A stretch of DNA of 53,126 nt, taken from contig JAJDOD010000077.1 of assembly GCA_022340315.1 (NCBI GenBank), forward strand, positions 1 to 53,126. Reading direction: 5' to 3'. The notes below the pieces were generated by a model, which was not told the DNA's origin, searched no databases, and saw nothing but the letters and a program-made list of their open reading frames with translations. Shown in pieces: positions 6,224-17,693 of the stretch (its first letter is position 1; each line of letters starts with the position of its first letter). A program made the position numbers and the translations under genes. Origin of the DNA: Silicimonas sp. (GTDB lineage: Bacteria; Pseudomonadota; Alphaproteobacteria; Rhodobacterales; Rhodobacteraceae).

Positions 6224-8191
6224 TCACTCGCCGTCGCGTTCCCTGAGATCGTCGTCGGTGGTCCGAACGCGCGGACGATCACCCACACGGAACGGCGAGT
6301 TTTCCTGATGATACTGCGCATTTACGCGGCAGTTGTCGCACATCTGGATCAGGCGCACCTGGTCACCGCCCTGATACATCCAATGCTTGTCCGAGAGTTT
6401 CTCGACGATCGTTTCGATGGTCGAGCGGACACCGAACGGCGTGCCGCACTCGACGCATTCAAAGGGCTCTTCCTCGTGGAGCGTGCGATAGCTCAGCGCC
6501 TCTTTGCGAAGGTCAAGCCGAGGGTTCAGCGTGATCGCCGTCTCCGGGCAGGCATTCGCGCAAATCCCGCATTGCAGGCAGGCGGTTTCCTGGAAGCGGA
6601 CCGAGGGTTTGTCGGGATTGTCGCCTAACGCCCCGGCTGGGCAAAGCGAAACGCAGGCGAGGCAGAGCGTGCAGGCGTCGGTGTCGATATTGATTTGCCC
6701 GTAGGGCGCGCCCGCAGGGAGGGACAACACGGCGGCGTCTCCGTTCAGGGCCGTTGCCGCCAGCCGGGTCACATCTCGGCGACCGCCGAGTGGCAGTACC
6801 GGATTTGCCACCGGTTCTCCGGTCGTGGCACCGTATAGCGCGGCCTCCATCGCGTCCGGGTCTTCGACGTCGAGAAGGCGAGCCAACGATCCGGGCGCGA
6901 TCGCGTTGGCAAGCGCGAGTTCGCGGTAAATCACGGCACGATCACTTCGGGGGCCGGGCATCAGGGCAACACTGGCAAAGCCAACGCCGAGTGCGGCGAG
7001 AATTTCGGCGTGACCGACGCCTTCGACAGACGCAACCTCGACCGGAATGACGTCGGCGGGAAGCCCTTGTCCGTAGCGTGCGGACAGACGGATCATGTCC
7101 CCGCCCCAGTCCGCCTCGTGGAACAGAACGCGCGGCGCAATGCCTCCGGCGGCGCGGAAGGTAGCGGCGAGGGTACGCAGCCGGGCGAACAGTGTCGCCA
7201 CAGGCGGATCGTCATACGAGGCCGCGCCCGAGGGGCAGACCGCCGCGCAGGCCCCGCAGCCTGCGCAGATATCGGTGTCGATTGCGACCGTATCGCCGTC
7301 GGCGGTGATCGCCCCGGTCGGGCAGACGTTCAGGCAGCGGTCGCAGCCCGTCCGGCTGGCGCGGGAATGGGCGCAGATCGTGGGATCGAAACGGATGTAG
7401 AGCGGTTTTTCAAAGACCCCCTGCAGGTCTTTCGCCTGGGCAATCGAGCGCTCGACCGCCAGCGGGTCGCCCGGATCGGCGCGCACATAGCCTTCGCGTT
7501 TGTGGTCGGCGGGGAAAAGCGGCGCCTGGCCGCGCAGATCGAGAATGATGTCGCATGTCGACTTCGCGCCATCTTTCGGCGCTCCGAACCGGCCAGCGCC
7601 GCGCCCTCCTGGCTGGAGCGACCGAAACGCATCGACGGTGATCGAAAAACCACCCAACGCACCTGCCGCGAACTTCAGGTGGCCGGTTGCAATATCAAAT
7701 CGGCCGTCCGGCGCGATATCGTCTGGCGTGTCGGTCAGCAGGCAGGTTACGGCAAGCGCATCGGAAAGCCGGTCCGCGGCGGCTAGCGCGGTTTCGGCCC
7801 GGCCAAGGATGAGACAGGTCCCCTCGGAGACAACGTCTTTGGCCGGTGTGTCGGGGCGCGGCAGGGCGGCTTCGGCAAGCAGAGCTGCCTGCTTGGGGAA
7901 TGCGTCTGCCTCGGCGGTCCAACCTGCCCTGTCCCTGATATCGACGGTCGCCAGCCGGGCCTCGGCGCCAAGTTCCTCGGCCAGTTCCTCGAACAGCGCC
8001 GCCATCTGGCCGCAGGCGACAAGCGTCGTGCCCTCACGCCCGAGAGCCGCCCCGGCGATGTCAATGTCGGACGTGCAAAGTGCGGTGGCCGTCATCACCT
8101 CGACCTCGCCCAAACCGGCAGCCGCAGTCCTGGCGTCGATCCGCATCGAATCGTCGCACGAGCACAGAAGCAGCCGTTCGATCTTTGCCAT
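6224..8191 (-). CDS. Multi-cluster 4Fe-4S ferredoxin-type protein of the formate dehydrogenase locus
   Basis: A 655-residue cytoplasmic iron-sulfur protein. It has two separate ferredoxin regions: one with CDRCLNVCP and CAGCGACAAVCP around residues 280-325, and one with CTLCLACVSLCP and CLQCGICANACP around residues 510-560. A further CVECGTPF...CDNCR cysteine set lies near the C-terminus. The N-terminal 250 residues carry isolated cysteines (LLLCSCDDS) and no recognised catalytic motif. Proteins of this architecture neighbour formate dehydrogenase genes in Rhodobacterales and may carry electrons for enzyme maturation or sulfur transfer; the role is not proven. The second of two adjacent ATGs (8191) has the better spacing from GGGAGG. 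It diverges from the DUF3305 gene across 77 bp. Confidence 0.87.
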   Translation of the reverse strand: MAKIERLLLCSCDDSMRIDARTAAAGLGEVEVMTATALCTSDIDIAGAALGREGTTLVACGQMAALFEELAEELGAEARLATVDIRDRAGWTAEADAFPKQAALLAEAALPRPDTPAKDVVSEGTCLILGRAETALAAADRLSDALAVTCLLTDTPDDIAPDGRFDIATGHLKFAAGALGGFSITVDAFRSLQPGGRGAGRFGAPKDGAKSTCDIILDLRGQAPLFPADHKREGYVRADPGDPLAVERSIAQAKDLQGVFEKPLYIRFDPTICAHSRASRTGCDRCLNVCPTGAITADGDTVAIDTDICAGCGACAAVCPSGAASYDDPPVATLFARLRTLAATFRAAGGIAPRVLFHEADWGGDMIRLSARYGQGLPADVIPVEVASVEGVGHAEILAALGVGFASVALMPGPRSDRAVIYRELALANAIAPGSLARLLDVEDPDAMEAALYGATTGEPVANPVLPLGGRRDVTRLAATALNGDAAVLSLPAGAPYGQINIDTDACTLCLACVSLCPAGALGDNPDKPSVRFQETACLQCGICANACPETAITLNPRLDLRKEALSYRTLHEEEPFECVECGTPFGVRSTIETIVEKLSDKHWMYQGGDQVRLIQMCDNCRVNAQYHQENSPFRVGDRPRVRTTDDDLRERDGE

Positions 8192-8268
8192 CATCGTCCT
8201 CCCCGGAGGCGCATCTTGATGGGATGTTTTGACAAAGGCAATCCGGCTATGGTCTCGTCGGGTTCGCG

Positions 8269-8841
8269 ATGAACGAGACACCGAAAGACCTTTCAGTTCC
8301 GGTTGGCGTAGTACTGCGCCGCCGACCTGGCGTGACGCGCTGGGCCAAGTGGTCCTGGAGCGCCGTCGCCGTCCTGCCCAATGCCGGGCCGGGCGGGTTT
8401 CGGGTGTTGCGCCAGGATGGTGATATCACCGACTTTCATGCCGCGACTGTTCCGATGGAGCTTCACCACACCGAAACCGAGGGATACCGGACGTCGCTGA
8501 TGATGAAGCCTCCCAGCGTTTTCGTGGTGCTGGACAAGGGTCCGAACGCAGGCAACGAGCATGGCCTTGCGGTCCACGCCGTGACCGCAAGCGCGGCACT
8601 GGGCCTGGATTGGCAGGATAGCGACGAGATGATCGTCGAGCCGGTGGCGATGCCGGATGTGCTGGTGGAACTGGTGCGCGATTTCTGCGAGGCACATTTC
8701 AAGGATACGCCTTTCATAAAGCGAAAGCGTGATCGAAAGGATATCGACCTGGTCGAGGATGGCATAGGCGATTCGCGGATTCGCCAGGTGGCGGACGTCT
8801 ACCGCAGTCCGGCATCACTGAAGGGGAGGCGCGATGGGTGA
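8269..8841 (+). CDS. DUF3305 domain protein, formate dehydrogenase accessory
   Basis: A 190-residue cytoplasmic protein of the DUF3305 family. Family members are found almost only beside formate dehydrogenase genes and usually precede DUF3306. It begins MNETPKDLSVPVGVVLRRRPG and contains WAKWSWSAVAVLPNAGPG and HHTETEGYRTSLMM, which are family hallmarks. No catalytic residues or membrane segments are evident. A role in assembling or delivering the molybdoenzyme is inferred from context. No clear ribosome site precedes the ATG. Its end overlaps the DUF3306 start by 8 bp, so translation is likely coupled. Confidence 0.84.
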   Translation: MNETPKDLSVPVGVVLRRRPGVTRWAKWSWSAVAVLPNAGPGGFRVLRQDGDITDFHAATVPMELHHTETEGYRTSLMMKPPSVFVVLDKGPNAGNEHGLAVHAVTASAALGLDWQDSDEMIVEPVAMPDVLVELVRDFCEAHFKDTPFIKRKRDRKDIDLVEDGIGDSRIRQVADVYRSPASLKGRRDG

Positions 8842-9421
8842 CGAGGACTTTCTGTCCCGGTGGTCACGCCGCAAGCGCGACCCGGCGGCGGAGGACAGCG
8901 AGCATGCGGCGGCCGCGATCCCTGTCGATGTCGCCGAGGTACCCGAGCCCGCAAGCGAGGCGGAAGAAGCGGCCCTGTTGAAGGAACTGGGCTTGCCCTT
9001 GCCTGAAAGCCTCAGGGCCGGCGACGATTTTTCGATCTTCATGACGAAGGGTGTTCCGCAGTTTCTTCGGAGGCGCGCGCTTCGGGTGTTGTGGCGAACG
9101 AACCCTGTGCTGGCAAATCTCGACGGGTTGAACGACTACGATGACGATTTCACATCGCCGGAGCTGACGAAGAAGGTCCTTGCAACCGCCTATCAGGTGG
9201 GGCGCGGCTTTGTATCACAAATTGTTGAGCCCGAGGCTGCCGAGGTGTCCGAGGTGCGCGAGCCGAGCGAACAGCCGCCGGGCGAGGAGCGTATCGTTCC
9301 GGGCGAACGTGAGAAAATACATGAGGAAACAGACCATTCGGCGGATCCGGTGGAGGACGCGGCAGAAGACAACAAGCCCGAAAACCCTGCCAGGCCCCGG
9401 AGGATGCGATTCGAAACCTGA
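8834..9421 (+). CDS. DUF3306 domain protein, formate dehydrogenase accessory
   Basis: A 195-residue protein of the DUF3306 family. The N-terminus MGDEDFLSRWSRRKR is characteristic, and the core FMTKGVPQFLRRRALRVLWR (residues ~63-82) with PVLANLDGLNDYDDDF follows. The last ~70 residues are strongly acidic, low in complexity and probably disordered, ending in a basic RPRRMRFET patch. Function is unknown; it is a constant partner of DUF3305 in formate dehydrogenase loci. It overlaps the DUF3305 gene by 8 bp. A 98-bp gap with a palindrome separates it from the torD-like gene. Confidence 0.84.
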   Translation: MGDEDFLSRWSRRKRDPAAEDSEHAAAAIPVDVAEVPEPASEAEEAALLKELGLPLPESLRAGDDFSIFMTKGVPQFLRRRALRVLWRTNPVLANLDGLNDYDDDFTSPELTKKVLATAYQVGRGFVSQIVEPEAAEVSEVREPSEQPPGEERIVPGEREKIHEETDHSADPVEDAAEDNKPENPARPRRMRFET

Positions 9422-9519: not shown

Positions 9520-10137
9520 ATGAGCCATTCTCGCCAGACGGCCAGTAACGGGGAGAGCATTGCGGAAGAGGATCTTCTGCGGGCTGGCCTGTATTCAACA
9601 TTGGCCACGCTACTTTCCGCGCCACCAGCGGAGGATACCTTGCGCACAGTTGCCGCGCTCTCCGGCGATGCGTCCGATCTGGGCGAAGGCATAAGTGCGC
9701 TGGCCACCGTTGCCAGGGGAACCGCCGAGGCGGCGGTCAAGCGGGAGTACGACGCACTGTTCATTGGTCTCGGGCGCGGTGAGTTGCTGCCCTATGCCAG
9801 TTTTTACCTGACGGGATTTCTGAACGAAAAGCCGCTCGCCCGGTTGCGCGGTCATATGGCCGAGCTTGGGATCGAGCGGAACCCGGACGTGAAAGAGCCG
9901 GAAGACCATATCGCGACGCTTTGCGACATGATGGCCGGCCTGATCCGGGGCACGTTCGGCACACCGCTTTCGGTCGAGGATCAGCACGCGTTCTTCAATA
10001 CGCATGTCGCGACCTGGGCCCCGCATTTCTTCAAGGATCTGGAGGCCGCCAAAGGCTCGGTCTTCTACGCGCCGGTCGGCAAGATTGGCCGCGCGTTCAT
10101 GGAGATCGAGATTGAAGCCTTTCGAATGGAGGCCTGA
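9520..10137 (+). CDS. TorD/DmsD-family molybdoenzyme chaperone
   Basis: A 205-residue all-helical cytoplasmic chaperone of the TorD/NarJ family. These proteins bind the Tat signal of a molybdoenzyme and hold it until cofactor insertion is complete. Visible family parts are LLRAGLYSTLATLLSAPP (residues ~18-35), EYDALFIGLGRGELLPYASFY (~73-93) and the EPEDHIATLCDMM signature (~126-138), followed by FFNTHVATWAPHFFKDLE. Its natural client is the Tat-exported FdhA encoded about 250 bp downstream. GGGAA precedes the ATG. It is the first gene after the palindrome region and probably opens the structural operon. Confidence 0.87.
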   Translation: MSHSRQTASNGESIAEEDLLRAGLYSTLATLLSAPPAEDTLRTVAALSGDASDLGEGISALATVARGTAEAAVKREYDALFIGLGRGELLPYASFYLTGFLNEKPLARLRGHMAELGIERNPDVKEPEDHIATLCDMMAGLIRGTFGTPLSVEDQHAFFNTHVATWAPHFFKDLEAAKGSVFYAPVGKIGRAFMEIEIEAFRMEA

Positions 10138-10186: not shown

Positions 10187-10372
10187 ATGGACGAAAAGAG
10201 GAAAGAAGGCGCCAGCCGCCGCGACTTCCTGAAACTTGCCGGAACTTCGGCGCCAGCCGCTGTAGCCGCTGTAGCGGTCGGCAGCGAAGCCGCCGCCGAC
10301 GAGGTACAGCAGGGTTCGGGCCTGAAGAAGACCGAGCATATCAAGAAGTACCTGGCTTCGGCACGGTTCTGA
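10187..10372 (+). CDS. 61-residue twin-arginine signal protein of the formate dehydrogenase operon
   Basis: A tiny protein with a full Tat motif, SRRDFLKLA (residues 10-18), then an Ala/Val-rich hydrophobic stretch (~20-35). A short tail, KKTEHIKKYLASARF, ends it. GGGAGGA precedes the ATG and the fdhA start follows 13 bp after its stop. Small Tat-signal proteins recur directly upstream of fdhA in proteobacterial formate dehydrogenase clusters. It may be a small subunit-like anchor or a maturation factor. Its function is not established. The tail is too short for a folded domain. Confidence 0.82.
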   Translation: MDEKRKEGASRRDFLKLAGTSAPAAVAAVAVGSEAAADEVQQGSGLKKTEHIKKYLASARF

Positions 10373-10385
10373 GGGAGGACAAAGC

Positions 10386-13283
10386 ATGTTGAGAAAGAAG
10401 ACAGCACATGTCGCGCGCTCGGACCGGTCATCCTCGATCCTCGCGCGGGCAGGGAAATCCAAGCTTGACCGGCGCACGTTCCTGCGCGGCTCGGGTCTTG
10501 CCGTCGGCGGTCTGGCGGCGATCGGCACCGTTGGCCGGGTGACCCCGGCGGCGGCGCAAAGCGCCAGCATGGGCAAGGTTGAGATCAAGAAGTCCGTCTG
10601 CACCCATTGCTCGGTCGGCTGCACCGTACTGGCGGAAGTCGAAAACGGCGTCTGGACCGGGCAGGAGCCTGCCTGGGACAGCCCGTTCAACCTCGGCGCC
10701 CATTGCGCCAAGGGTGCAGCGGTGCGCGAACACTCCCACGGCGAGCGCCGGGTGAAATACCCGATGAAACTCGTCGGTGGCGAATGGACCCGCGTCAGCT
10801 GGGAAGAGGCGATCAACGAGATCGGCGACAAGATGCTGGAGATTCGCGAGGAAAGCGGACCGGACAGCGTCTATTGGCTGGGCTCGGCCAAGCACAACAA
10901 CGAACAGGCCTATCTCTATCGCAAGTTCGCCGCATACTGGGGCACCAACAATATCGACCACCAGGCGAGGATCTGTCACTCGACCACGGTTGCGGGTGTG
11001 GCGAACACATGGGGCTACGGCGCCATGACGAACAGCTACAACGACATCCACAACAGCCGGGCGATCTTCATCATCGGCGGCAACCCCGCCGAGGCGCACC
11101 CCGTTTCGCTCCTGCATGTCCTCCGTGCGAAAGAGCAGAACAACGCGCCGCTGATTGTCTGCGATCCGCGCTTCACGCGGACGGCTGCTCATGCCGATGA
11201 ATATGTGCGGTTCCGTCCGGGCAGCGACGTCGCGCTGATCTGGGGCATCCTGTGGCACATCTTCGAGAACGGGTGGGAGGACAAGGAGTTCATCCGCACC
11301 CGCACCTGGGGCATGGACCAGATCAAGGAAGAGGTCGCTCGCTGGACGCCGGAAGAAACCGAGCGCGTCACCGGCGTGCCGGGATCGCAGCTCGAACGCG
11401 TCGCGCGCACGATGGCCAACAACCGCCCCGGCACCGTGATCTGGTGCATGGGCGGCACTCAGCACACCAATGGCAACAACAACACGCGCGCCTATTGCGT
11501 GCTGCAGCTTGCCCTTGGCAACATGGGTACCTCGGGGGGTGGCACGAACATCTTCCGCGGCCATGACAACGTGCAGGGCGCAACCGACCTGGGCGTTCTG
11601 GCCGATACGCTGCCTGGCTACTATGGCCTGGCCGACGGCTCATGGGCACACTGGGCGCGGGTTTGGGAAGAAGATCTCGACTGGCTTCGCGGCCGGTTCG
11701 CGACGCTTCCCGGAAAAGGAGCCGACGGTGCCGATCTGCCGATGATCAACGAGCGCGGCATTCCGGTTTCGCGCTGGATCGACGGTGTTCTTGAGGACAA
11801 GGAGAACCTCGTTCAGCCCGACAATACGCGGGCGATGGTTCTCTGGGGCCATGCGCCCAACTCGCAGACCCGTCTGGTCGAAATGAAGGCAGCGATGGAG
11901 AAGCTGGACCTTCTGGTTGTGGTCGATCCGTTCCCGACGGTCTCGGCTATCCTGCATGATCGTCAGGACGGTGCGTACCTTCTGCCTGCGACGACGCAGT
12001 TCGAGACCCGTGGTTCGGTCACGGCCTCGAACCGATCGCTGCAGTGGCGCGAGAAAGTCATGGAGCCGCTCTTCGACAGTCTTCCCGATCACGTCATCAT
12101 GGCGAAATTCGCGAAGAAATTCGGCTTCGCCGACCGCATCTTCCGCAATATCTCGATGGACGCGGAAGATGAGCCGAACATCGAAGACATCCTGCGCGAG
12201 ATCAACCGGGGCATGTGGACGATCGGCTATACCGGCCAGTCGCCGGAGCGCCTCAAGCTGCACATGGCCAACCAGCACACGTTCGACAAGACGACGCTGC
12301 AGGCCGTGGGCGGCCCGGCGGACGGCGACTTTTACGGGCTGCCTTGGCCAAGCTGGGGCAACCCGGAGATGAACCACCCCGGCACGCCGAACCTTTACGA
12401 CATGTCGAAGCCGGTCTCGAAAGGTGGTCTAACCTTCCGGGCGCGCTTCGGGGTCGAGCGGGACGGCGACAACCTGCTGGCCGAAGGGGTCTACTCCCAG
12501 GGGTCGGAAATCCAGGACGGCTATCCGGAGTTCACCATGCAGATGCTGATGGACCTTGGATGGGATGGGGATCTGACCGACGACGAACGCGCGGCAATCG
12601 ACGCCGTTGCCGGGCCTGGTACCAACTGGAAAACCGACCTATCCGGCGGCATCCAGCGGGTGGCGATCAAGCACGAATGCGCGCCCTTCGGGAACGCGAA
12701 AGCTCGTGCTGTCGTCTGGACCTTCCCCGATCCGGTGCCGGTTCACCGTGAGCCTCTCTACTCGAACCGGCGCGATCTCGTGGCGGATTACCCGACCTAC
12801 GACGACAAGACGTTCTGGCGGGTGCCGACGCTCTACAAGTCGATTCAGGATAAGGACTTCTCGTCCGATTACCCGATCATCCTCACCTCGGGCCGGTTGG
12901 TCGAGTACGAGGGTGGCGGGGACGAGACGCGGTCCAACCCCTGGCTGGCAGAGCTTCAGCAGGACATGTTCGTTGAAATCAACCCGCGCACCGCAAACAA
13001 CATCGGTGTGAGGGACGGCGAGCAGGTCTGGGTCGAAGGCCCGGAGGGAGGCAAGGTCAAGGTGATGGCCATGCTGACCAACCGGGTAGGCGAAGGCGTG
13101 GCCTTCATGCCCTTCCACTTCGGCGGGCATTTCCAGGGCGAAGACCGAAGGCACAAGTATCCGGAGGGAGCCGACCCCTATGTGCTGGGCGAAAGCTGCA
13201 ACACTGCGCAGACCTATGGCTACGATAGCGTGACGCAGATGCAGGAGACCAAGGCCACGCTCTGCAAGATCACGGCAGCGTAA
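10386..13283 (+). CDS. fdhA: Formate dehydrogenase alpha subunit, Tat-exported, cysteine-type
   Basis: This is the catalytic subunit, oxidising formate to CO2 at a bis-MGD molybdenum or tungsten centre, probably in the periplasm. The 965-residue protein has a Tat signal with R29-R30 and a cleavage-like AAAQ near 58. A [4Fe-4S] motif is formed by C72, C75, C79 and C107. The metal ligand region reads RICHS with C197-H198, so cysteine (codon TGT at 10974) replaces the selenocysteine of E. coli FdnG. Later blocks include FIIGGNPAEAHP, GGTQHTNGNNNTRAYC and GHDNVQGATD. The C-terminal domain has EINPRTANNIGVRDGEQV. GGGAGG precedes the ATG. It is followed 13 bp later by fdhB. Confidence 0.96.
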   Translation: MLRKKTAHVARSDRSSSILARAGKSKLDRRTFLRGSGLAVGGLAAIGTVGRVTPAAAQSASMGKVEIKKSVCTHCSVGCTVLAEVENGVWTGQEPAWDSPFNLGAHCAKGAAVREHSHGERRVKYPMKLVGGEWTRVSWEEAINEIGDKMLEIREESGPDSVYWLGSAKHNNEQAYLYRKFAAYWGTNNIDHQARICHSTTVAGVANTWGYGAMTNSYNDIHNSRAIFIIGGNPAEAHPVSLLHVLRAKEQNNAPLIVCDPRFTRTAAHADEYVRFRPGSDVALIWGILWHIFENGWEDKEFIRTRTWGMDQIKEEVARWTPEETERVTGVPGSQLERVARTMANNRPGTVIWCMGGTQHTNGNNNTRAYCVLQLALGNMGTSGGGTNIFRGHDNVQGATDLGVLADTLPGYYGLADGSWAHWARVWEEDLDWLRGRFATLPGKGADGADLPMINERGIPVSRWIDGVLEDKENLVQPDNTRAMVLWGHAPNSQTRLVEMKAAMEKLDLLVVVDPFPTVSAILHDRQDGAYLLPATTQFETRGSVTASNRSLQWREKVMEPLFDSLPDHVIMAKFAKKFGFADRIFRNISMDAEDEPNIEDILREINRGMWTIGYTGQSPERLKLHMANQHTFDKTTLQAVGGPADGDFYGLPWPSWGNPEMNHPGTPNLYDMSKPVSKGGLTFRARFGVERDGDNLLAEGVYSQGSEIQDGYPEFTMQMLMDLGWDGDLTDDERAAIDAVAGPGTNWKTDLSGGIQRVAIKHECAPFGNAKARAVVWTFPDPVPVHREPLYSNRRDLVADYPTYDDKTFWRVPTLYKSIQDKDFSSDYPIILTSGRLVEYEGGGDETRSNPWLAELQQDMFVEINPRTANNIGVRDGEQVWVEGPEGGKVKVMAMLTNRVGEGVAFMPFHFGGHFQGEDRRHKYPEGADPYVLGESCNTAQTYGYDSVTQMQETKATLCKITAA

Positions 13284-13296
13284 GGAGGAAAGAGAG

Positions 13297-13890
13297 ATGG
13301 CAAGAGTTAAGTTTCTCGTCGACGCCGAACGCTGCATCGAGTGCAACGCCTGCGTCACCGCTTGTAAGAACGAGCATGAAATCCCGTGGGGCATCAACCG
13401 CCGCCGGGTCGTGACGATCAATGACGGCGACCCGGGCGAACGCTCGATCTCGGTGGCCTGCATGCATTGCTCGGATGCGCCCTGCATGGCGGTCTGCCCG
13501 GTCGACTGCTTCTACCAGACCAATGACGGTGTGGTGCTGCACTCGAAGGACCTCTGCATCGGTTGCGGCTACTGCTTCTACGCGTGTCCCTTCGGCGCGC
13601 CCCAGTTCCCGCAGGCCGGCAACTTCGGCTCGCGCGGCAAGATGGACAAGTGCACGTTCTGCAATGGCGGGCCGGAAGAGGACAATTCGACGGTCGAGTT
13701 CCAGAAATACGGCCGCAATCGCATGGCCGAGGGCAAACTGCCCATCTGTGCCGAGATGTGCTCGACTAAGGCGCTTCTGGGCGGCGATGGGGATGACGTA
13801 TCCGATATCTATCGCGAACGCGTCGTGGCGCGCGGCTTCGGCTCTGGTGCCTGGGGTTGGGGCACGGCCTACGACCAGAAGGGCGGCTAG
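13297..13890 (+). CDS. fdhB: Formate dehydrogenase beta subunit, four-cluster ferredoxin
   Basis: A 197-residue iron-sulfur subunit that relays electrons from FdhA to the cytochrome b subunit. Four cysteine groups are visible: CIECNACVTAC (C13-C23), CMHCSDAPCMAVCP, CIGCGYCFYACP, and CTFC paired with CAEMC. This fits four [4Fe-4S] clusters. It has no signal peptide, as expected for a subunit co-exported with the Tat-signalled alpha chain. It has no C-terminal membrane helix, unlike FdnH. A strong GGAGG lies before the ATG. A hairpin follows the stop. Confidence 0.95.
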   Translation: MARVKFLVDAERCIECNACVTACKNEHEIPWGINRRRVVTINDGDPGERSISVACMHCSDAPCMAVCPVDCFYQTNDGVVLHSKDLCIGCGYCFYACPFGAPQFPQAGNFGSRGKMDKCTFCNGGPEEDNSTVEFQKYGRNRMAEGKLPICAEMCSTKALLGGDGDDVSDIYRERVVARGFGSGAWGWGTAYDQKGG

Positions 13891-13943: not shown

Positions 13944-13974
13944 AAACGTGCTATTATTCATACTTAAGGTGATC

Positions 13975-14979
13975 ATGGAGCCGACGTCTCAAAGAATACG
14001 ATCCGAGCTTCCAAGCGGTGATCCGACCCTGTTGAACAAGGTCGCCTGGTCGAGACGTTGGTCCGACCGGAATGCAAGTATTGATTTTGCCGCCAAGGCG
14101 CGGGATGCCGCAAGCAAAGGCACGGGTCGGCGCAGCAGGGTACAGAACGGGCTGGCACTTGGCACTCTGGCCTGGCATGCCGCGTGGCGAGGCAACCTCG
14201 ATGAGGCGATGGGCCATTGTCTTAGTGCCGAGACCTTCCTGTCCGAACGCGAAAACGCCGAAGCGCGGGCGAAGGTTTATGCGATTCTCGGCAAGGTGCA
14301 TTTGGCCCACAACCGTTTCGATCTTTCGGATTGTTCACTGGAGCGCGGATTCTGGCTGCTGCGGGACATGCCCGAGGCAGACGTAAACGAGGCGCTTGTC
14401 GAATTGCTTCTCACGCGCGCATACGTTCAGCGCAATACCGGTGAACGGGCGCGTTCAGGTATAACGCTCGGCCGCGCACAAGAGATCTGCAACGAGTCGA
14501 TGGCACCGGTGGTCGGTTTCTGGACGGCTAAATGGCTTCTTTTCGATGGCGATGCTGAAGCCGCGCGCCAGCATTCGGTGACCACCTTCGAGGCCGCAAA
14601 CGAGCAATCAAACCGGATAATCCTGCCCCATCTGTATGGCGTGATCGGCGCGTGCGACGCCCGGCTGGGCCGTCGCGAGGAGGCCGTCGCAAGTCTCGAG
14701 AAAGGCATGGCATTGGCGGAAGAAGGAGGCGATCACCTGATCATTTGCCTTATTCACAGCTTCTACGCCCAGATCGAAAAGCAACGGGGCGACCTGCAAG
14801 CGGCAAAATCTCATCTTGAAGCCGCCATGCGCATTGCCAAGGAACTTGGCCACGCTTTTGAGCGCAAGCGCATTGCGCTGCAATTGGCGGATCTTCTCGA
14901 GGAATTGAAAGAATACAAGAAAGCGGTTCAGCAGCACAAGTTGGCCTGGCGTCTGCAGAATGAAACCCGCGTGAATTGA
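13975..14979 (+). CDS. TPR-repeat protein inserted between fdhB and fdhC
   Basis: A 334-residue cytoplasmic protein built of tandem tetratricopeptide-like helical pairs. Clear repeats include LGTLAWHAAWRGNLDEAMGH (~62-81), VYAILGKVHLAHNRFDLSD (~98-116) and GVIGACDARLGRREEAVASL (~222-241). SFYAQIEKQRGDLQAAKSHL (~262-281) is another. It has no signal peptide, membrane helix or catalytic domain. TPR arrays bind partner proteins, so a scaffold, assembly or regulatory role for the enzyme is inferred. The ATG at 13975 is preferred over one 27 bp upstream because AAGGTG precedes it. Position inside an fdh operon is unusual, and the family has no name that I recognise. Confidence 0.8.
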   Translation: MEPTSQRIRSELPSGDPTLLNKVAWSRRWSDRNASIDFAAKARDAASKGTGRRSRVQNGLALGTLAWHAAWRGNLDEAMGHCLSAETFLSERENAEARAKVYAILGKVHLAHNRFDLSDCSLERGFWLLRDMPEADVNEALVELLLTRAYVQRNTGERARSGITLGRAQEICNESMAPVVGFWTAKWLLFDGDAEAARQHSVTTFEAANEQSNRIILPHLYGVIGACDARLGRREEAVASLEKGMALAEEGGDHLIICLIHSFYAQIEKQRGDLQAAKSHLEAAMRIAKELGHAFERKRIALQLADLLEELKEYKKAVQQHKLAWRLQNETRVN

Positions 14980-15025: not shown

Positions 15026-16267
15026 ATGCTTCGGTGGATAGTTCTCGTGGTGCTGATAACGGCTTTCCTTCCGTTATTGCCGGGCGCAGCTCTCGCGCAG
15101 GTGAGCGATGCAACGACCGAGTCCCGCGCGGAGACGGGGGGCGCCACGACACTTGAAGATATTCTCAGGCGGCAGCGAGGCGAGGATGTGGACCTTGAGT
15201 TCCGCCGCGATGAACTGGGCAGTCCGGACGGCGGTGCGTCCACGACCGATCCGCTGGGGACACGGGGTGGCGCATCCGATCCCGAGCTTTGGCGCGCATT
15301 GCGATATGGCGAGGCCGATATCACGAGCCAGGTCCGCTCGCCGGGAGCGACGCTTTTGGTTCAGGATGGTGGCATGGCGTGGCTGCAGTTCCGTGCCGGG
15401 CCGCTTCGCACCTGGGGCGGCTATTTTCTTCTCGGCGTGGTTGGATTTCTGGCGTTGTTCTATCTTGTCCGGGGCCGCATCAGGATCGGTGAGGGCCGGT
15501 CCGGAATGACCATACTGAGGTTCAATTTCGTCGAACGGTTTTCCCACTGGCTTCTCGCCGGGTCGTTTATCCTGCTTGGGTTGACCGGGCTGGCCACTCT
15601 TTTCGGCCGGGTCGCGCTGATCCCGCTGTTCGACATGATGGGCAGCGATCGCGGCCACGAGATCAACTCGACCATCGCGATCGCATCGAAATGGGTCCAC
15701 AACAATGTCAGTTGGGCCTTCATGGTGGCCCTGGTGATGGTGTTCGTGCTCTGGGTCGTTCACAATATTCCGAACCGGCTGGACCTTGTGTGGTTCGCGA
15801 AGGGAGGCGGTATCGTGGGCAAGGGCCATCCGCCCGCGAAGAAATTCAACGCTGGACAGAAGATCGTCTTCTGGTCGGTCATTCTTCTGGGCGCCTCGAT
15901 TTCTGCTTCCGGCTTGGAGTTGCTTTTCCCCTTCGAGTTGCACCTCTTCGAGAAAACCTTCGGGATGATGCGCGATCTGGGCGTGACCGAGTTGCCGCTT
16001 TACGGAGCGATCCCCGAAACGCTGACGCCCCATGCCGAGATGCAGCACGCGCAGGCCTGGCACGCAATGGTCAGCTTCCTGCTGATGGGTATTGTTATCG
16101 CCCATATCTACATTGGCACTCTGGGCATGGAAGGCGCCTACGATGCGATGGGATCGGGTGAGGTCGATCTGAACTGGGCAAAGGAGCACCACAGCCTTTG
16201 GGTCGAGGAAGAAGAGGCTTCGGGCCACGCGATAGAGCGGCCAGCCAGGGCGACGCCCGCGGAATAG
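15026..16267 (+). CDS. fdhC: Formate dehydrogenase gamma subunit, cytochrome b556
   Basis: A 413-residue membrane diheme cytochrome b that anchors the enzyme and passes electrons to the quinone pool. A signal peptide (residues 1-25, ending ALAQ) precedes a ~100-residue Gly/Asp-rich periplasmic region. Four or five membrane helices follow from residue ~130. Heme-ligand candidates are the histidines in ERFSHWLLAG, KWVHNN and HAMVSFLLMGIVIAHIYIG. FNVVERFSHW-like and AKEHHSLWVEEE sequences are typical of FdoI/FdhC proteins. AAAGGGAGG precedes the ATG. The stop lies 3 bp before the WD40-cytochrome c gene. Confidence 0.93.
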   Translation: MLRWIVLVVLITAFLPLLPGAALAQVSDATTESRAETGGATTLEDILRRQRGEDVDLEFRRDELGSPDGGASTTDPLGTRGGASDPELWRALRYGEADITSQVRSPGATLLVQDGGMAWLQFRAGPLRTWGGYFLLGVVGFLALFYLVRGRIRIGEGRSGMTILRFNFVERFSHWLLAGSFILLGLTGLATLFGRVALIPLFDMMGSDRGHEINSTIAIASKWVHNNVSWAFMVALVMVFVLWVVHNIPNRLDLVWFAKGGGIVGKGHPPAKKFNAGQKIVFWSVILLGASISASGLELLFPFELHLFEKTFGMMRDLGVTELPLYGAIPETLTPHAEMQHAQAWHAMVSFLLMGIVIAHIYIGTLGMEGAYDAMGSGEVDLNWAKEHHSLWVEEEEASGHAIERPARATPAE

Positions 16268-16270
16268 CGG

Positions 16271-17557
16271 ATGCGAGCCTTGCCCTTGTCCCTCGTGCTT
16301 TTGGCAGCTCCGGCCGCTGCGGCGGATTTCAGAGTGCTGGCGGGGCACGGAGGTCCGGTCATGGATGCCGCCATATCGGACGATGGAACGCATGCGTTGA
16401 CCGCGAGCTTTGACAACTCGGTGGGTTACTGGGCGCTTGGCGGCGAGGTCGTAAGCTGGCTCGAGGGCCACCGGGCGGCAGTCAAGACGGTAGCCTTCAT
16501 CGACGACCGACGGGCCGCCTCCGGCGGCGATGATTTCGCGATCACGCTTTGGGATCTCGCCAGCGGCACGCAAACCGCCCGGCTCGAGGGCCACAAGGGA
16601 CAGGTCGCGGGGCTTGCCGTCTCGCCGGATGGGAGCGTGCTGGCATCGGCGTCGTGGGATGGTTCCGTGGGATTGTGGAGCCTGCCGGGCGGCAAGCCGA
16701 TTGCGCTGATGACCGGGCATGGTGGCGTGGTCAACGATGTGGCATTCTCGGCGGATGGAACGCAGCTCTACTCGGCCTCGGCGGATGGCACGATTCGCGT
16801 CTGGCGCGTGGCCGAAGCGGTCGAGACGCGGCAACTGGTCCATCACGGTTTCGGAGTGAACAAGCTGTTGGTCGGCGACGGATGGCTCGCCTATGGCGCG
16901 GTCGATGGCGGCACCCGTATCGTCGAGACCGAGAGCGCCGAGGAGATTGCCGACCTGACGCTCGACCGGCGCCCGATCCTTGCCCTTGCCGCCGCTCCCG
17001 ACAGCAGCGAGATTGCAGTTGGTGATGGCGAAGGCTTTGTCATGACCGTGGACACCCGGAGCTGGAAGATCAGCGGCGACTACAAGGCCGCAGGCAAGGG
17101 GCCGGTCTGGGCGCTCGCCTATACCGCCGACGGAAAGAGCCTCCTGGCGGGCGGGATCGACGACGCCGGTTATATCTGGCCCGCCCATAACCGGCTGGAT
17201 GCACCGATAATGGCGACGAAGGAGCGGGGCTTTCTGCGCGATCCCGGAGAGATGTCGAATGGTGAAAGGCAGTTCCGCAGGAAATGCTCGATCTGCCACA
17301 GCCTGACCGATGATGGCGCCCGACGAGCAGGCCCGCATTTGGGCGGCCTGTTCGGCCGGGATGCCGGCAGCGTCGAAGGCTACTCCTATTCCCAGACGGT
17401 TTCCGCGCTCGACTTCGAGTGGTCTGCAACGACCATTGACCGGCTCTTCGATCTTGGTCCGGACCACTTCATTCCCGGCTCGAAAATGCCTATGCAACGT
17501 ATCGTGAAACCCGAGGATCGCGCCGACCTGATCGCGTTCCTGAAAGACAACACGTGA
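16271..17557 (+). CDS. Periplasmic WD40 beta-propeller fused to a class I cytochrome c
   Basis: A 428-residue exported protein. A signal peptide (~1-18, ending AAAA) leads into WD40-type repeats from about residue 20 to 310. Repeats read HGGPVMDAAISDDGTHALTA, GHRAAVKTVAF, GHKGQVAGLAVSPDGSVLAS and GHGGVVNDVAFSADGTQLYS. A cytochrome c domain follows, with heme-binding C339-S-I-C342-H343 and a likely distal Met in GSKMPM (M406 or M408). AGPHLGGLFGRDAGSVEGYSYS is typical of class I cytochromes c. Its start is 3 bp after fdhC, so it is almost certainly in the operon. It may dock to the dehydrogenase and take or hand on electrons to periplasmic acceptors; this is inference. No loss of heme residues is seen. 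Confidence 0.91.
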   Translation: MRALPLSLVLLAAPAAAADFRVLAGHGGPVMDAAISDDGTHALTASFDNSVGYWALGGEVVSWLEGHRAAVKTVAFIDDRRAASGGDDFAITLWDLASGTQTARLEGHKGQVAGLAVSPDGSVLASASWDGSVGLWSLPGGKPIALMTGHGGVVNDVAFSADGTQLYSASADGTIRVWRVAEAVETRQLVHHGFGVNKLLVGDGWLAYGAVDGGTRIVETESAEEIADLTLDRRPILALAAAPDSSEIAVGDGEGFVMTVDTRSWKISGDYKAAGKGPVWALAYTADGKSLLAGGIDDAGYIWPAHNRLDAPIMATKERGFLRDPGEMSNGERQFRRKCSICHSLTDDGARRAGPHLGGLFGRDAGSVEGYSYSQTVSALDFEWSATTIDRLFDLGPDHFIPGSKMPMQRIVKPEDRADLIAFLKDNT

Positions 17558-17567
17558 GGAGACGACC

Positions 17568-17693
17568 ATGAAAGCCATGCTGAGTGCCTTTGTCGTTATG
17601 GGTTTGATCTCGGTCGGAGCGTATTACGGTCTGCACGAGGCGGGGTTCGGTTCGGATGAGCGTCAGACTTCCGACTCGGTACGGCTCGACTGA
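17568..17693 (+). CDS. 41-residue single-span membrane protein
   Basis: A very short gene starting 10 bp after the WD40-cytochrome c stop, with GAGGAGA before the ATG. The product has one hydrophobic segment (~residues 3-22, containing FVVMGLISVGAYYGL) and a short polar tail. It resembles no family that I recognise. Its spacing, ribosome site and position between two coding regions argue that it is translated. It may be a small assembly or stabilising subunit of the membrane complex. Confidence 0.6.
   Translation: MKAMLSAFVVMGLISVGAYYGLHEAGFGSDERQTSDSVRLD

Follow-up and report, generated by a model that had tools for sequence, protein, structure and literature searches.

In the alphaproteobacterium Silicimonas sp., a gene lying directly behind the cytochrome b subunit gene of a formate dehydrogenase encodes a WD40 propeller fused to a one-heme cytochrome c, and the linkage of this gene to FDH3-type formate dehydrogenase persists through changes of cluster end, strand, and fusion state, so that a functional tie between the two is very likely. 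To the more specific proposal that the protein is an accessory partner through which electrons leave FDH3 in the periplasm for cytochrome c acceptors, we give an even chance. The window, namely the whole stretch of DNA that was analyzed, comprises the 53,126 nucleotides at positions 1 to 53,126 (forward strand) of contig JAJDOD010000077.1 in assembly GCA_022340315.1, and its relevant features are collected in the table.

Table. Features of the propeller-cytochrome gene and the adjoining formate dehydrogenase locus (positions in the window)
Feature	Position	Strand	Basis or remark
4Fe-4S protein, divergent cluster end	6224..8281	-	Pfam
FDH3-cluster genes for DUF3305 and DUF3306 proteins	8269..9421	+	Pfam
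TorD-type chaperone	9520..10137	+	Pfam, NCBIfam
Small TAT-leader protein of formate dehydrogenase loci	10187..10372	+	TIGR02811, 40.1 bits, below the cut-off of 48.45
fdhA, catalytic subunit	10386..13283	+	9vap_A, 1429.7 bits; twin-arginine leader and Cys in RICHS, by eye
fdhB, FDH3-type iron-sulfur subunit	13297..13890	+	NF038355, 342.5 bits (cut-off 240)
fdhC, cytochrome b gamma subunit	15026..16267	+	Keeps H174, H225, H346, H360
WD40 propeller-cytochrome c gene	16271..17557	+	ORF, 428 aa, directly behind fdhC
Signal-like N-terminus, residues 1-19	16271..16327	+	Cleavage near AAA-ADF, read by eye
Seven-bladed WD40 propeller, residues 21-304	16331..17182	+	AlphaFold model, structural matches
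Class I cytochrome c domain, residues 326-428	17246..17554	+	Pfam, sequence kinship
Heme-binding CSICH, residues 339-343	17285..17299	+	Motif, alignment
Met406, presumed distal heme ligand	17486..17488	+	Invariant; aligns with the Met of rice cytochrome c
41-aa single-helix microprotein	17568..17693	+	Conserved at FDH3 loci among relatives of the window

The initial annotation had read from the letters a start 3 bp behind the cytochrome b subunit gene, a WD40 and a cytochrome c domain, and heme residues with a distal Met, all of which hold. The fdhC stop codon (TAG, 16265-16267) is separated by 3 bp from the ATG at 16271, and a longer start is ruled out because this stop codon shares the frame of the propeller-cytochrome gene. 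A periplasmic location is predicted from the signal-like N-terminus, together with the heme motif, and Ala17 of that N-terminus is kept in 90% or more of the aligned homologs. Pfam models for both domains score above their cut-offs, namely WD40 (PF00400) with 121.5 bits (cut-off 27) and Cytochrom_C (PF00034) with 39.2 bits (cut-off 21.3). An AlphaFold model built from 56 sequences (pLDDT 91.4, pTM 0.87) shows seven four-stranded blades, with the N-terminal strand 21-24 closing the ring, followed by a helical cytochrome domain; the Pfam score and the modeled blades together point to a seven-bladed WD40 propeller. Consistent with this, the structural matches listed for residues 18-308 are WD40 proteins, and the best among them is the bacterial WD40 protein 5yzv_B (Z 44.0, rmsd 1.4 over 284 residues). 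The cytochrome domain is closest in sequence to mitochondrial cytochrome c (rice 1ccr, E 1.8e-22). No NCBIfam model scored above its own cut-off on the full protein, the only match being NF043008 with 45.8 bits against a cut-off of 240, and plasmid records annotate homologs as 'c-type cytochrome' or 'hypothetical protein'.

The heme residues C339-x2-C342-H343 and M406 are invariant in the 56 aligned sequences. The 113 propeller-cytochrome sequences taken from the loci reduce to 99 distinct ones (the window's included), each of which holds a single CxxCH and a downstream Met, within KMP[MV]Q in 98 and RMPMQ in one. The distant homologs listed likewise hold one CxxCH and the Met motif in 29/29, including one (L178) that is interrupted within the propeller. 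Taken with the sequence kinship, these residues assign the domain to the class I cytochromes c, as far as sequence can tell. Conservation in the propeller is uneven, with a mean of 0.80 in the top-face loops versus 0.47 in the bottom-face loops, and of 0.74 versus 0.44 when Gly, His, and Asp are left out. Such a conserved top face would fit a docking face, yet the top loops bear structural residues too.

The host locus is assigned by sequence models to the FDH3 type, given that the beta subunit matches NF038355 (342.5 bits, cut-off 240), with alpha and gamma subunit genes adjoining; TIGR01583 also scores above its cut-off in the locus (121.2 bits, cut-off 115.85). FdhC aligns with the cytochrome b subunit of Escherichia coli formate dehydrogenase N (Fdh-N), including four histidines that are presumably the counterparts of the Fdh-N heme ligands. 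FdhC retains the four in 109-110 of 110 loci with the fused gene, in 12/12 with a relocated gene, in 6/6 with a split gene, and in 65/65 without the gene. As they are kept in every group, the quinone route appears intact, with the cytochrome an addition to it, and we reject a loss of this route. We also rejected an apparent FdhC-propeller-cytochrome fusion in two loci (L190 and L191), where the extra part of the long frames is, by eye, FdhC read in the wrong frame, and where FdhC is present in its own frame beside the propeller-cytochrome gene. A TPR-repeat ORF (13948-14979, plus strand) lies between fdhB and fdhC; among 149 loci with both of these genes, it was seen only in the window's own genome (the window, L001, and L159) and in L033 and L093. 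Acceptors for a cytochrome c exist in the same genome (85.9% complete), to judge from two COX1 genes, one of which lies beside FixO, and a Rieske bc1 signature.

The gene was then traced through order, class, and phylum samples, which overlap in genomes, at fixed thresholds (E 1e-60 in the order and class) with only 4-10 candidates scored per genome. In the order, it was found in 87/292 genomes, a recurrence beyond chance, and an FDH3 FdhB in 147/292, with all 87 carriers within the 147. This co-occurrence gave a Fisher p of 1e-34, a value that ignores shared ancestry and depends on the threshold. The class sample gave 30/385 carriers, all within the 56/385 genomes with FDH3, and the phylum sample gave 11/170, all within 20/170. 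The claim that the gene belongs with formate dehydrogenase is thus borne out by an FDH3 FdhB in every one of the 87, 30, and 11 carrier genomes. In 75 of the 87 order genomes, the propeller-cytochrome match shares the strand of the fdhC match and starts -11 to 160 bp downstream of it, and among the named loci FdhC is directly upstream in 70/72. The remaining 12 of the 87 carry the gene elsewhere in the genome, through three events on the tree. Gene neighbors of these relocated copies, the gene itself and overlapping frames aside, share families only among three close relatives (L106, L109, and L112), and a common partner of the relocated copies is therefore rejected. Five loci titled as the Defluviicoccus group (L041 and L044-L047) fall inside the Rhodobacterales on the cytochrome tree, reflecting either transfer or mislabelled bins.

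Outside the window's family, the class sample holds 27 matches in 26 genomes of 17 families, and 24 of the 27 lie in an FDH3 cluster, mostly behind fdhC. Arrangements vary among the 27 matches: (i) the gene stands behind fdhC on the opposite strand in L183, L189, and L192; (ii) it adjoins the 4Fe-4S gene at the other cluster end in L182, L184, L185, L187, and L188; and (iii) it lies elsewhere in genomes with FDH3 in L172 and L179, while L180 is a 3.9 kb contig. Full-length homologs also occur in 17 of 72,556 plasmid records, the same 17 at E 1e-40 and at E 1e-25, and 16 further records match the propeller part only at E 1e-25. Five plasmid regions that were read, from Salipiger, Sulfitobacter, Sinorhizobium, Bradyrhizobium, and Methylobacterium, are all in FDH3 clusters; in the Methylobacterium bullatum record the gene lies near the FDH3 genes.

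Because so few candidates per genome had been scored, FDH3 loci that seemingly lacked the gene were re-read with a broader model, covering 59 of 60 in the order (G165 had no listed place) and 26/26 in the class. The count of absences at E 1e-60 (60 in the order and 26 in the class) proved too high, as re-reading recovered 10 fused copies in the order and, in the class, 6 fused, 6 split, and 3 partial ones (L240, L242, and L262). The ten in the order are divergent fused copies, and 49/59 loci hold none in the stretch near FDH3; at least 97 of the 147 order genomes with FDH3 therefore carry the gene, with 49 having none near FDH3 and one unread. In the class, 11/26 re-read loci have none, which brings the 56 FDH3 genomes to 36 fused, 6 split, 3 partial, and 11 none. 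The re-read phylum loci, seven of them outside the class, lack the gene near FDH3 in 9/9. A copy in genome G318 that had seemed broken was found intact (L261) with the broader model. The initial annotation had proposed a survey of fdh loci for this neighbor, with confinement to a single genome as a refuting outcome, and the result is twofold: the gene is widespread far beyond this genome, but it is not universal.

The split form occurs in six loci of three families (L234, L245, and L268 in the first; L235 and L239 in the second; L269 in the third), where a propeller gene stands behind fdhC and is followed by a convergent cytochrome gene on the other strand. Each split cytochrome holds CxxCH and the Lys-Met pair. 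The model gives 167 bits for the first family and 101-119 bits for the other two, and ordinary cytochromes of other genomes score 75-114 bits with a similar model. The split cytochromes of two families thus score like ordinary ones and are linked by position more than by sequence. Among genomes lacking FDH3, the fusion was found at the thresholds used in 0/145 of the order, 0/329 of the class, and 0/150 of the phylum, with few candidates scored. When every candidate was scored in ten such genomes, nine gave matches to the cytochrome part only and no fusion. The tenth (G298; a fragmented assembly of 810 contigs, 7% contamination), in which an FDH3 FdhB was not found, holds a convergent propeller and cytochrome pair (L274:271-1587) on a 10.4 kb contig with no recognizable fdh genes, and reflects either a gap in the assembly or a true exception. 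Presence of the gene changes 25 times on a tree of 188 FdhA rows, at least 19 of them on well supported branches; judged from this tree, the propeller-cytochrome gene comes and goes with the FDH3 locus.

Directly behind the propeller-cytochrome gene lies the microprotein gene, for which Pfam and NCBIfam gave no match up to E 1. Under a motif-based rule that we devised, and with one locus holding a divergent cytochrome copy (L136) grouped among those lacking the gene in the operonic and relocated counts, the microprotein stands behind the cytochrome gene in 68/69 operonic loci, behind fdhC in 11/12 loci whose cytochrome gene had moved, and behind 1/12 relocated copies; in controls, it followed FdhA in 0/104 and TorD in 1/101. 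In loci without the cytochrome gene, it follows fdhC in 40/49 of the order, in 1/9 of other alphaproteobacteria, and in 2/7 outside the class, and it was found behind fdhC in 0/6 split and 0/16 newly found fused loci. Within the wider kin of the window, the microprotein is thus a candidate for a small FDH3 component that has been overlooked. A gene for a sigma-54 dependent regulator comes after it in the Salipiger and Sulfitobacter plasmid loci (L208 and L209).

Because a fully liganded class I cytochrome is here paired with a protein-binding propeller, we favor an electron carrier as the simplest reading. The conserved top face of the propeller would dock on periplasmic FdhAB or on the periplasmic part of FdhC, and the tethered cytochrome would accept single electrons from the distal FdhB iron-sulfur cluster or from the outer FdhC heme b, passing them through soluble cytochromes to cytochrome c oxidases. 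Formate would then have two outlets, with FdhC leading to ubiquinone and the propeller-cytochrome to the pool of cytochrome c; where the protein docks, which way electrons flow, and between which partners are all inferred. The initial annotation had likewise suggested docking to FdhA or FdhB and a second electron route, with both of which the conserved propeller face and the mitochondrial-type cytochrome would be compatible. Several observations weigh against this reading, namely that FDH3 occurs without the gene (in the 49, 11, and 9 re-read loci of the order, class, and phylum given above), that the FdhC histidines are kept with or without it, so that quinone reduction needs no help, that the gene is relocated in 12 order genomes and that the G298 pair stands without fdh genes, that in two of the three families with split genes the cytochromes do not outscore ordinary ones, and that a hint from an FdhC motif (RQRGE, below) failed. 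The optional presence and the relocated copies, along with the scaffold fold of the propeller and its conserved top face, would suit a redox sensor or an assembly or stability factor, in which the propeller holds FDH3 or shields it from oxygen and the heme does no more than report or buffer the redox state. We consider such a role unlikely, given that the full class I ligand set (99/99) and the mitochondrial-type domain are as expected of a carrier, and that FDH3 exists without the protein.

A further reading, with docking on FdhC, would have the protein link the cytochrome b subunit to the cytochrome c pool as a bc1 bypass, with electrons not drawn from FdhAB. Its appeal lies in fdhC being the immediate neighbor in 75/87 order genomes, in the split propeller genes also standing behind fdhC, and in an FdhC motif, RQRGE, that is present in 56/71 near loci versus 2/28 (L136 being among these 28). 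Over all loci, however, the motif is found in 61/110 with a fused gene, 2/12 with a relocated gene, 0/6 with a split gene, and 8/65 without the gene, so that RQRGE is not supported as a docking site; an independent-pairs test gave a median p of 0.25, and some homologs stand at the far end of the cluster. We consider this reading rather improbable. Marginally less probable again is that the protein supplies a periplasmic peroxidase or other reductase, instead of an oxidase, with electrons derived from formate, removing oxidants near the enzyme. More than one acceptor can be served by a soluble carrier with a single heme, and the clusters read name none; against this, the relocated loci share no gene family beyond the three close relatives, which is a weak argument as the FDH3 neighbors are only partly annotated. 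It is very improbable that the gene is a mere passenger with no functional tie to the dehydrogenase. Its absence near many FDH3 genes and the one split-like pair with no fdh genes in sight would agree with that, but FDH3 is present in all carrier genomes of the three samples, and the gene keeps to the cluster whether it stands at one end or the other, on either strand, fused or split.

We know of no cytochrome c partner of E. coli Fdh-N, nor of a WD40 domain in the arsenite oxidase and cytochrome c system of Rhizobium NT-26. FdhC matches the cytochrome b subunit of Fdh-N (PDB 1KQF) but has a long N-terminal extension. The NT-26 enzyme, studied for its electron transfer to cytochrome c, resembles the present case as an alphaproteobacterial respiratory oxidoreductase with a cytochrome c, as far as the consulted part of that paper goes (PMC5574378). 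In the examined part of a 2026 review (PMC13397495), FdhABC3 of sulfate-reducing bacteria is a periplasmic formate dehydrogenase with a tetraheme cytochrome subunit and no membrane subunit. It thus shares a dedicated c-type cytochrome with the present system, in which, by contrast, that cytochrome has one heme, is joined to a propeller, and accompanies a cytochrome b subunit; a single CxxCH in 99/99 sequences sets the protein apart from a four-heme subunit of that type. Section 2.4.3 of the review describes Shewanella oneidensis FdhAB (PDB 9VAP) as an oxygen-tolerant Cys-W enzyme, and the words WD40 and propeller are absent from the part examined. FdhA and FdhB of the window match 9VAP with 1429.7 and 324.9 bits, being of the same FDH3 type, but among the 60 matches listed when the propeller-cytochrome or its cytochrome domain was searched, none is a 9VAP chain. 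Planctomycete-type cytochromes with WD40 domains, described in Verrucomicrobia, also combine both domains in one bacterial protein, but they belong to other cytochrome families, and formate dehydrogenase is not mentioned in the consulted part of that source (PMC5615132). Dedicated Fdh cytochromes and WD40-cytochrome proteins are therefore already known separately; a one-heme cytochrome c fused to a propeller beside FDH3 was not found described. In agreement with the initial claim that no standard fdh operon had been described with such a subunit, open-licence papers yielded no description of a propeller-cytochrome partner of formate dehydrogenase.

Among the C1 intermediates of alphaproteobacteria in the sea and in soil, formate is a central one. 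Little is known of the natural partner of FDH3, and Fdh3 and Fdh4 of Methylobacterium extorquens were not yet assayable as of a 2010 study, according to the part of it consulted (PMC2991311). We tentatively propose, at somewhat less than even confidence, that alphaproteobacterial FDH3 is a two-outlet enzyme which, besides ubiquinone, reduces the cytochrome c pool directly through the propeller-cytochrome, fused in most lineages and split in some. FDH3 would then be a formate:cytochrome c oxidoreductase bypassing bc1, and this protein a candidate for the missing natural acceptor, for example in Methylobacterium. With a conserved cytochrome partner, FDH3 would gain a named acceptor that can be assayed, which would matter for the use of oxygen-tolerant FDH3 enzymes in bioelectrocatalysis, and, if true, the proposal would show how formate may feed oxidases directly.
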